From positions 48,398 through 112,397 of the forward strand of contig JALLBK010000134.1 of NCBI GenBank assembly GCA_036940085.1: a stretch of 64,000 bases of DNA, written 5' to 3'. The translations under genes were made by a program, and so were the position numbers. Numbering within the stretch: the first letter of the stretch is position 1; every line of letters starts with the position of its first letter. Below the pieces are notes generated by a model. The model searched no databases. It had not been told where the DNA came from and saw nothing but the letters and a program-made list of their open reading frames with translations. The stretch comes from Discostella pseudostelligera. Taxonomy: Eukaryota; Bacillariophyta; Thalassiosirophyceae; Thalassiosirales; Thalassiosiraceae. Below, piece by piece: positions 27,625 through 32,530 of this stretch.

Positions 27625-30316
27625 TTATTCTCCTTTCTTGGAGTATACCATAGCTTCGTAAGCCTCATCAAGCGTGCTGCGAAGAAATGAATTTTTCGTC
27701 ACCTTCGCTGACTCGGCGACAAATATTGCCCGCGCTATCCGCTTTTGCAGTTGCGGCAAGCTGTGTGCATGCTTTATTTTCCATGGAAAGGTCATGTTCA
27801 GGAAACTATTCATTCGGAGGGCTCTCATGTATGCAGGTATGGCCGACTGACGCTCATTGTAATGTATTTTGGGGTATCTACTACCACAGACACTCAACTT
27901 TCCAGGCACTGGATATAACTTTAGATCAATACCGACGTGAACGAAGCTACTTCCTCGCTGTGTTGGCGTCAAATTTAAGGGAATATGTGGAACTTTTTAC
28001 ATCGTGCAACGATAATCAAGTATCAGCATAACCGAATTCACAAAGAAAGTATCATTCTGGCATCAGAATGGTACTCACCGATGTCATTGTTGTTATAAAA
28101 TCGTGCATGCTGTACCATTTTCTTCTTCTCTTGATGCCGAAATGCATCCGCAAATGAATGGCCAACACAATAGGGCATGCCATAGGTGAAAATTTTCACT
28201 GGGCCATGACGAGTAAAACGCTCATCCGTCGATGCATAGAATCCAAAAAGAAGTGAGAGAGCACCGCCGAGACTATATCCATTCACAGTCACGGTGAAGT
28301 CACTACCTATCATCTTATGCCCATACTCATACACTGAATTTGACAACAAGGACAGAAGAGGAGGAGAGTTGAAAAGTACAATCAAAGCAACGCAAAGAAC
28401 AAAAGGCAATTATTTGACACACCTTTGTTTGCAATCTCATCGTATTTACGGGTGTGTGTATCCTTCCTAATTCGGAAGAGATAGGTATAAAATCCACTAT
28501 GAACTTTGAGGTACGACGTCTTTCCCTCATAATCATCCTTCACTGGATTATGACCTCGTTTCATCGAGGCATCAAATGCATGATTCCAATCTGCACGCGT
28601 CGTCGCCCCACGAAATAGCACCAATACTCTTTTTTTCTTTTTGTCGACGGAAATAGCATAGATACAATCTTTGATCTGGAACCAGTCTTGTAGCCAAACC
28701 ACTTGTGCCTCGCTTTTGACCATGGTTTGCGACACAGTATTATCGCGAAAGAAGTCGGCCATGAAGTCCAACGAGTGTGAATTTCTAGATTCGATGCATT
28801 TCGTCATGAAGTCGAGCAATTCCCGTTCGGACATGTTCCTCCCGGCGTCCGACGATGATGATGATGCTCTCACCGTCTTCTCCTCCTCATTGTTGGAGGC
28901 GGCAATTTCGGATGGTAAATAGGACCGTGGCAAATTCAAACTAGATGTCATCTGAACTAGCTTGTTTCCAACATCTTCCGCACCAGCAAAAGTTTCGTAA
29001 TCATCGGCGGGTATAATTAATCTGTGGTGTAGTACTTGATCTTCTCTGATTTTCTCCACAAAGGTTGAAATGTTTTTCTTTAGGCCGAATTGCAATAGTG
29101 GACTACCGATACTATGTGGTGGATGCTCGATCGATTCTGTTACTCTCTTTCCATTGGTATTGCTTTCATTCACAGACTTTTGAACCACCGTGCTTCTCCC
29201 GTCAGGACTTTGCATTATTGACTCTGATACATTTGACATAGTTGCCGTTTCATCCAAACCAGCATTCTCTTGCGATTCATCAATGAACGACAACTGAATT
29301 CCACGAGTGGCTGTGCTGACTGCTTTATCGCTTTTGTTCATTTCGCAACCACCATTGCCATTGTGCAATCCGCGTTCTGGTGAGGTGCCCAATGGCGCCT
29401 TTCTCAGAAAAATGGTGGCATTTAGGACATTTCGGAATCGTTCAATGGCGGCATTACTCTTGCTATTTTTACTTCCTTCATCGTCAGTGTCGTTCTTCGA
29501 CGGATCATGGGGCAATGGTTGATCCATTTCATCCAACGAAACTAAATTCAACAACCGCGGCTTGCGGAATGGTGCACTATTGAGCAGCGTAGTTGGTGTC
29601 ATGACTTTCTTCTCCAATTTCACCTCGGGTATTCCCTTCAAATCATGTGCTAGCATATCATTGTACGATCTTATGAGCGCATGCATGTCAGTTTCAAATT
29701 CCTTCCGTCCCTTTCGATCTGTGATTTTATTGAGCAATCCTGCATCATCATCGTCATCGTCGATATCGGTTGCGACAGTCAAATTGGGTACCCATCCTCT
29801 CTCCTTCAGTTGTTCTTTGGCCCTCTTTCGTTGTGCAAGTACTTCCTGCCGTAACTCAACGAACAGAATGGCCATAACTTGTCCTGGCGAAACTCCCTCA
29901 GAGCTACTGATCAATGAACCTTCACCCTCTCCCTCTTCTAGTGGTGACTGGGATTTCCCTACCAGTTGTGCCATTTGTGCGGACGTCGTCCTTGGTACTT
30001 TGTCGGAGTCTATGCATAATGTCTCAAATTTTGTGTTGATACGACCGGTAGCACTGAGTAGGCGGAGATCAGCGTATAAGAACATGAAGAGGGATTGGGC
30101 GAGGCACTCTTGTGCCTCGTCGACGATTGTGTTGGTGGTTGCAGCAGCAGTATCAGCAGCAGTTGTTGGAGTTGGATAGGACTGCGACATTCGACGACCA
30201 GCACTGTCGCGGGCGGGTGTCACAAGAGTGTCTGACCCATATGCATGCTCGGATGATGATGATGCATCAGCACCAGCCATGACGCTCTCCGGATCAGCTA
30301 TCGTGACGTGTGGCAT
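27625..30316 (-). CDS. Class 3 (alpha/beta hydrolase) lipase
   Basis: Three exons (28423-30316, 28079-28333, 27625-27992; introns 89 and 86 bases) give 838 residues. The N-terminal 500 residues are mostly low complexity with helical patches (QVMAILFVELRQEVLAQRKR). The Lipase_3 domain begins about residue 555: DCIYAISVDKKKKRVLVLFR, GATTRADWNHAFDAS, then KVHSGFYTYL. Joining to exon 2 gives KVYEYGHKMIGSDFTVTVNG and the nucleophile elbow GYSLGGA, with Ser at about 652. Joining to exon 3 restores NNNDIVPHIPLNLTPTQRG and HVGIDLKLYP, which carries the likely catalytic His. It would hydrolyse acylglycerols or phospholipids; the substrate is unknown. No signal peptide. Confidence 0.88.
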
Positions 30317-30476
30317 GACGCTAGATTAGACCATCCATCAGTGATCGACGGGGAGGTGTTATTATGATGCCAACGCCAATGCCATGCGACATTATTATGG
30401 AGGAGGGAAGATGTTGTCAGTGCCACCGCACTGTGCATCTGCTGTTTGGATTTTTTGCTTGGGAGGTGCACGATCT

Positions 30477-31384: not shown

Positions 31385-32530
31385 TTACGACACGTAATCA
31401 GCCTTAATCTTTCGACCCAAATGCCACGCAGAACTTCCAAACAATGCAATATTCACAGAGCTGTATGGCATCGTGCACACAGGGCGATGAATGAAAGGAA
31501 GACACAATTTGAGTCGATAAGTACATATCATCAAAGCACATACACAGAGCGCGAGGGAATTTGAAATCCCATCCTAACACAATCTTACCAAAGTGTGTAA
31601 TTGATCGGAGTAACCAACAATGCATATCGTGAGAAGAAAAAGCCCGTTAATGTCAATGCCGAATATTGTGCCAATGAAATCTTTTCGGTAGGACGATCCA
31701 ATTCAAGGAAGGATGCACCCGATATCATCCATTTACTCATGGGTGCCCAAAAGTGTACGGTGCTGCACATCATGTCAAAAGGTGAGGGGTTTCACTCGAG
31801 AGGTTGTTGCGCAAAAACACAGACAACGACATGAAGTAGTAATCACTCACAATGGTCCAGCATCCGCCGCAGCCACCGTCGATATAGGTCCCAAATTAGC
31901 ATTCACCAATGCATTCTGCACCATCGGTCCACCCATGACACATGCCGCCCCCGCGGCCACAGTCAAACCAGCCTTGACCAATATATCTTGCACCTCGTCC
32001 TCTTTTCCATTCTCACGCTTATATTCAATCGCTCGACGCAATTGATTTCCCTGTGCGGCAATATTAGCGACATGACAACCGGCCAATAATAAATTTTGTG
32101 GTTTCACTACCATGGCCCATCGGGCAAAGAGACTGGAGTAGACGAGTAGGACGCCGGTCATGTTGAGACTGATTAATTCCGGTGAGGATTCGAGTGCGTC
32201 GTAGATGGCAGCACCGGACATTCCCCATCCGGCGAGAGCACCGCATCGACCCCAGAATTCAGCTGAGTTCCACCATGATGGAGATGATGAACTAGACGAT
32301 GAGCTGCTATTATTGGGCTTGGGTGGTTCGACGGCCGGCGGCGGGGAAGATTTGGCATTCGTTTTGTCACTAAACATACGTGTCGTCGTCGTCAACGAGT
32401 TTGATGGTGCCGTCCTGGATTTTGGCACCGATGTGCGTAGTAGGAGTAGGCGCAGTGTGGTGCTGCTGGATGACGAGGCATGTCGCGTTGCTAACGGAGA
32501 GAGGAGGAGTCGTCCAATCATCATTGTCAT
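31385..32530 (-). CDS. Tandem mitochondrial pyruvate carrier: MPC1-like plus MPC2-like domains in one protein
   Basis: Exons 31851-32530, 31589-31762 and 31385-31460 give 309 residues; introns are 88 and 128 bases with GTGAGT and GTAAGA donors. Residues 1-60 form an Arg/Ser-rich mitochondrial presequence, then a Pro/Ser linker. Domain 1 (about 88-172) is MPC1-like: EFWGRCGALAGWGMSGAAIY, SSPELIS, FARWAMVVKPQNLLLAGCHV, ANIAAQ. Residues about 182-208 add one hydrophobic helix (LVKAGLTVAAGAACVMGGPM). Domain 2 (about 224-309) is MPC2-like: AGPFTVHFWAPMSKWMISGA, RPTEKISLAQ, SRYALLVTPINYTLCSVNIA, HLGRKIK. Known MPC is a heterodimer that imports pyruvate across the inner membrane. Here both partners appear covalently joined in a 3-1-3 helix plan. 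A two-gene reading is possible but would lose the GPFT start of domain 2. Confidence 0.85.

Follow-up and report, generated by a model that had tools for sequence, protein, structure and literature searches.

Mitochondrial pyruvate carrier

Does one gene of the diatom Discostella pseudostelligera encode both subunits of the mitochondrial pyruvate carrier (MPC), and how would such a chain be arranged in the membrane? The question is raised by a locus at 32530-31385 on the minus strand of the window, the 64,000-nucleotide stretch of contig JALLBK010000134.1 analysed here. Our reading, which we hold with a probability of about 0.86, is that its product is a single-chain carrier in which an MPC1 and an MPC2 half are joined by an extra membrane-crossing helix, and which works without a partner subunit. 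The earlier note on this DNA knew of no described natural example, which does not stand: fusion of the MPC into a single gene in Cyclotella cryptica and other diatoms appears in the part of a 2016 paper available to us (PMC5124317). The diatom fusion itself is thus already known; what look new are the arrangement of helices, the pocket residues and the presequence, together with the relatives in haptophytes and a clade with signal-peptide-like N-termini.

Gene structure and relatives in diatoms

Translation and splice-site reading gave a three-exon gene with two introns, both with GT-AG ends. Exon 1 (31851..32530, minus strand like all features of the gene) carries the start codon, the presequence-like N-terminus, the MPC1-like half, the linker helix and the first residues of the MPC2-like half; exon 2 (31589..31762) encodes the bulk of the MPC2-like half, as its translation and PF03650 match indicate, and exon 3 (31385..31460) the final helix, the C-terminus and the stop codon. 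Intron 1 (31763..31850) has 88 nt and intron 2 (31461..31588) 128 nt. The spliced product comprises 309 amino acids plus stop, while the unspliced frame ends where intron 1 begins. Both introns had been proposed beforehand, and the reading frame and splice-site ends agree with them, as does a transcriptome protein of Detonula confervacea (P0005), which aligns over both junctions and is ungapped from residue 84 to the C-terminus. Judged from its relatives, the Discostella transcript would be spliced at these two sites.

The product was used to search for relatives, with 8000 candidates scored and 674 proteins found at E ≤ 0.001, the best 120 of which were used. Ninety-nine of these 120 cover 98% or more of query residues 86-309, and wherever a species name or taxid could be read it is that of a diatom, centric or pennate (Thalassiosira, Cyclotella, Detonula, Ditylum, Stephanodiscus, Epithemia, Striatella and Cylindrotheca); fused relatives from Fistulifera and Seminavis were among the matches listed for a second, divergent-fragment query. 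The earlier note had proposed looking for the same fusion in related diatoms, and it is found there: gene models of other diatoms and the MMETSP/EukProt proteins P0004, P0005, P0006 and P0010 hold the whole chain. A diatom-type alignment (A1) was built from 101 of the best 120 rows; the 19 left out, by no strict rule, were 17 covering at most 92% of the query plus P0002 and P0019, and four rows at 89-92% coverage were retained.

A six-frame search of the assembly (23 Mb, 963 contigs) with PF03650 returned two matches, both within the fused gene. No further match was obtained in the 23 Mb, which speaks, for this assembly alone, for an absence of separate MPC genes, although a diverged or intron-broken one could escape such a search. 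As a rough measure of completeness, five of five searched ribosomal families were found, with one match each. No relative was confirmed by tblastn in viral (20 pattern-matched stretches) or prokaryote (11) contigs.

Identity of the two halves

PF03650 (MPC) is the sole Pfam-A family matched by the product in a scan at E up to 0.1, in two stretches, and the whole protein scores 157.6 bits, the cut-off being 27 bits. When the MPC1-like three-helix half (32012..32275, about residues 86-173) was compared alone with the human chains, it scored 58.8 bits against MPC1L, 50.9 against MPC1 and at most 19.1 against MPC2; the MPC2-like three-helix half (31388..31861, about residues 224-309, split by both introns) scored up to 64.3 bits against MPC2 and 24.5 against MPC1L. 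Because each half scores best against its own subunit, by a preference of about 40 bits, the comparison identifies the halves as two different partners, MPC1-like then MPC2-like, in fixed order. The earlier note had described an ordered heterodimer in a single chain and had expected two profile hits, the first nearer MPC1 and the second nearer MPC2, all of which these scores bear out; a duplication of one subunit was considered and is ruled out by the same subunit-specific scores.

The linker helix and the predicted 3-1-3 plan

The stretch between the halves (residues 172-222 of P0001) is 51 residues long in 99 of the 101 A1 rows and 52 in the other two, in contrast to the presequence spacer, the length of which varies from 9 to 53 (standard deviation 8.1) in the same alignment. 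The best 19-residue hydropathy of the linker has a median of 1.46 over these rows, a value exceeded among the seven segments only by transmembrane helix 2 (TM2, 1.49), with TM3 and TM5 at 0.65 each. The near-constant length in diatoms and the high hydropathy together fit a structured membrane helix and not a loose tether.

Template-free AlphaFold2 models of one diatom and one haptophyte relative both show the linker as helical, and the best structural matches of both are the seven-helix SWEETs. Transferred from residues 175-208 of a modelled relative of 88% identity, the extra helix, predicted TM4, lies at about residues 177-210 of the window product (31901..32002), close to the hydrophobic helix at about 182-208 that had been proposed from the letters. 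Seven helices in a SWEET-like arrangement are thus predicted by both models, as the earlier note had supposed, and, as a prediction, the 3-1-3 plan is well supported by the length and hydropathy of the linker and by this modelling.

That note had also argued that without an extra helix the second half would lie upside down. The geometry of this argument is sound, but the membrane side of the MPC termini is disputed generally in the parts of the literature consulted (PMC12007569, PMC6945462). Charge was tried as a guide and rejected: per protein in the 101 relatives, the loops on the C-terminal side are richer both in K/R (8.7 versus 3.9) and in D/E (10.1 versus 3.3), and no orientation follows.

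Pocket residues and proposed mechanism

In the consulted part of PMC12007569 the human pocket is formed by S35, L38, Y64, F68, F71, L82 and H86 on the MPC1L side and by K49, T78, W82, L96 and N100 on the MPC2 side, K49 and H86 being essential to pyruvate binding. To compare these positions, 92 fused proteins were aligned (A2), 13 from the search with the window product and 79 of 107 new rows from the divergent-fragment query, for which the best 120 of 285 proteins at E ≤ 0.001 (1204 candidates) were taken; the 28 rows left out, again by no strict rule, were mainly shorter proteins. The equivalents of Y64, F68, L82, H86, K49, T78, Y85, L96 and N100 are invariant in A2 (n = 92). In the window product K237 corresponds to K49 and H153 to H86, both kept in 92/92. 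Because the equivalents of K49 and H86 are among the invariant positions, the alignment indicates that the essential residues of an H+-coupled pyruvate carrier are retained in one chain.

Two positions depart from the human chains throughout: the F71 equivalent is W and the W82 equivalent is F in all 92 proteins (W138 and F270 in the window product). The S35 equivalent is G in 27 and N in 65, and the L38 equivalent M in 26, I in one and L in 65. Possibly this W and this F, which never vary, mark out the fused form, the comparison being with human chains only. W82 of MPC2 is the residue that stacks against inhibitors in the human carrier, and the two substitutions (W82→F, F71→W) could possibly alter the response to inhibitors; no paper naming W82F in connection with the carrier was found in our literature search.

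We propose that the extra crossing helix would hold both three-helix bundles in parallel, an arrangement shared with SWEETs, and that the chain would fold into a pseudo-twofold barrel with a single central site, in which H153 of the MPC1 half and K237 of the MPC2 half would bind the carboxylate of pyruvate. Pyruvate would then be moved together with H+ by alternating access like in the human heterodimer, with no partner subunit required. We infer that this protein resides in mitochondria, has pyruvate and H+ as its substrates and functions as a monomer.

The N-terminus and putative mitochondrial targeting

The presequence-like N-terminus (32369..32530, about residues 1-54) contains no D or E, several R and K, and an R-M-F-S site. 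An MPP-like arginine motif, counted by the stricter of two presequence patterns on 100 of the 101 A1 rows, is present in 72 of the 100 diatom relatives, against a mean of 17 and a maximum of 30 in 500 shuffles; the looser pattern gave 87/100. The helical moment of the N-termini (0.439) is in slight excess only over shuffled ones (mean 0.403, maximum 0.421 in 50). With their basic character and MPP-like motif, the diatom N-termini look like mitochondrial presequences. Yeast Mpc2 and Mpc3 are described, in the part of PMC6945462 available, as lacking a cleavable presequence and taking the TIM22 carrier route, and the fused form may have switched to the presequence route of import. A presequence drawing the N-terminus into the matrix is a suggestive hint on orientation, not a decisive one, because N-tails can be re-exported.

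Haptophyte relatives and origin of the fusion

Two matches are assigned to haptophytes by taxid, P0255 (156173, Haptolina brevifila) and P0272 (221442, Coccolithus braarudii). Their W-P-P motif defines the rows called haptophyte-type here, 65 of the 92 in A2, of which these two are the only ones named. The window protein is 54% identical to P0272 over 223 residues, linker included. When linker profiles of the diatom type (27 rows) and the haptophyte type (61 rows) were aligned with hhalign, the score was 42.1, whereas none of 200 column shuffles scored above 18.0; by this profile comparison the linker is homologous between the two types. Because of this homology the fusion probably arose once, with later transfer or loss.

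A tree was computed by a quick method, with the Shimodaira-Hasegawa-like approximate likelihood ratio test (SH-aLRT) only, from 88 of the 92 A2 rows plus the window protein, with N-termini removed and with P0263, P0269, P0271 and P0279 omitted as truncated or carrying extra stretches. The split between diatom and haptophyte types has support 100, and a branch of 30 rows inside the haptophyte type has support 99. This branch, of which one row is named by species and which includes P0272, P0301 and P0323, is marked by its N-termini: ahead of helix 1, 29 of 30 rows have a strongly hydrophobic stretch within their first 60 residues, by a hydropathy cut-off set after the values were known; A-x-A is also present in 21/30 and an LRGG motif in 27/30. 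Neither the hydrophobic N-terminal stretch nor LRGG occurs in any of the 31 other haptophyte-type or 27 diatom-type rows. Four members (P0281, P0300, P0320 and P0329) begin without M, and the stretch in P0300 and P0320 is perhaps no signal. The N-termini of the branch resemble signal-plus-transit sequences, which would direct the protein to the complex plastid or the space around it.

We give slightly less than even odds to a wider picture. In it, the MPC family would have repeated the SemiSWEET-to-SWEET step once, by fusion of an MPC1 with an MPC2 gene via a new crossing helix, in an event shared by diatoms and haptophytes; a haptophyte clade would then have acquired an endoplasmic reticulum-type signal leading to the complex plastid or the compartment around it, and with it an MPC-type pyruvate carrier working outside mitochondria; and the mitochondrial form would use the presequence route, unlike the yeast MPC with its carrier route.

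Alternative explanations

That the fused gene is an artefact of the gene model, with two adjacent MPC genes giving separate mRNAs, has a vanishingly small chance of being right. Splicing in Discostella is read from its relatives, and short MPC2-only proteins do exist in databases: a search with the MPC2 half alone found 146 proteins at E ≤ 0.001 among 151 candidates, and 16 of the best 120 were examined. Five of them (P0136, P0187, P0209, P0238 and P0240) have unrelated N-terminal residues and can be read as a fragment or as a separate MPC2, among them P0136 and the Craspedostauros transcriptome protein P0187, which start with unrelated sequence before the MPC2 part. Several others of the 16, however, have their first residues within TM3 or the linker and are apparently pieces of fused genes, the four MMETSP/EukProt proteins contain the entire chain, and the spacing between the halves is near-constant over 101 rows. 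It is also improbable, though less remotely so, that the linker rests on the surface of the membrane or forms a re-entrant hairpin, the halves being tethered and not arranged as in SWEETs. Several points weigh for such a linker and against a crossing helix: a G-P pair (G199, P200) is conserved in the diatom linker, the haptophyte-type stretch varies from 45 to 50 residues, while still hydrophobic, the linker helix of the haptophyte model is broken at residue 199, and long amphipathic helices at the membrane surface are also a feature of the human MPC subunits (PMC12007569, in part). Against it stand the near-fixed length and high hydropathy in diatoms and the overlay of both models on SWEETs; moreover, a linker that did not cross would leave the second half antiparallel, at odds with human MPC, for which the same part of that paper describes a twofold axis at right angles to the membrane.

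A carrier with an altered job, exporting pyruvate from mitochondria with their own glycolysis or moving another monocarboxylate, is unlikely, if somewhat less so than a surface linker. An altered job was proposed for C. cryptica in the consulted part of PMC5124317, and the equivalents of F71 and W82 are changed in every A2 protein, but the essential K and H and most of the pocket are intact, and since gradients and not the fold set direction, export would be compatible with the single-chain carrier that we favour.

Implications and neighbouring genes

In a natural one-chain MPC the halves have a set ratio and a set relative orientation, and such a protein would be handy for structural and transport studies of a drug target as well as a natural test of whether a single heterodimer suffices. 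The single topology of the fused chain bears on the dispute over the side of the MPC termini in the inner membrane. The fused carrier would also be a second, apparently separate case of half-transporters turned into one chain via an inserted helix, informing the evolution of such proteins, and the haptophyte signal-peptide clade hints at MPC-type pyruvate transport outside mitochondria.

The MPC gene is flanked by a divergent protein phosphatase 2C gene (PF00481; 32887-34059, plus strand), with 356 bases between the start codons on the present reading, and by a convergent open frame for a TRAPP component (PF04051; 30479-31246, plus strand), with stop codons about 140 bases apart. A further open frame of 647 residues (28382-30325, minus strand) has no Pfam match; by eye its end looks like the beginning of a class 3 lipase domain, and the frame may be exon 1 of a larger gene.

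Comparison with known systems

The nearest known system is the fused MPC of C. cryptica (g13004.t1; PMC5124317), a related centric diatom, in which MPC1 and MPC2 likewise lie in a single gene. The C. cryptica protein in our search (P0009, 300 residues), presumably g13004.t1, is 84% identical to the window product over query residues 86-309. The part of that paper available to us gives the fusion one sentence, without linking helix, topology, SWEET likeness or haptophytes. No description of the helix plan or of a haptophyte fusion was found in the accessible parts of the open-licence PubMed Central literature, and a natural fusion goes unmentioned in those of PMC10909473, PMC7699257, PMC11115451, PMC7350735, PMC6198282 and PMC9546453.

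Compared with human MPC1/MPC2 and MPC1L/MPC2 (PDB 9giv, 8yw6 and 9mnw), the halves match their own subunits and keep the equivalents of K49 and H86, and single human chains from these entries match the two models structurally. The diatom protein differs in being one chain, in its extra helix and presequence-like N-terminus, and in the exchanges W82→F and F71→W. The solved human complexes consist of two separate subunits whereas the diatom gene gives one open chain after splicing; separateness is, however, a trait of the known complexes, and belongs neither to the family profile nor to the mechanism.

Cystinosin and the KDEL receptor, seven-helix proteins too, are the next-best structural matches after SWEETs, at 6-10% identity; their substrates, membranes and sequences differ from those of MPC. 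The SWEETs (5xpd, 5ctg), the top structural match of the models, share the predicted 3-1-3 plan. Identity in these structural alignments is 11-14%, and the diatom protein matches PF03650 only in Pfam, no SWEET sequence profile having been matched in the Pfam-A scan at E up to 0.1. In SWEETs and cystinosin an additional helix links the domains, unlike in MPC as described in the available part of PMC12007569; in the fused diatom carrier, a SWEET-like plan would have arisen separately, within the MPC family.
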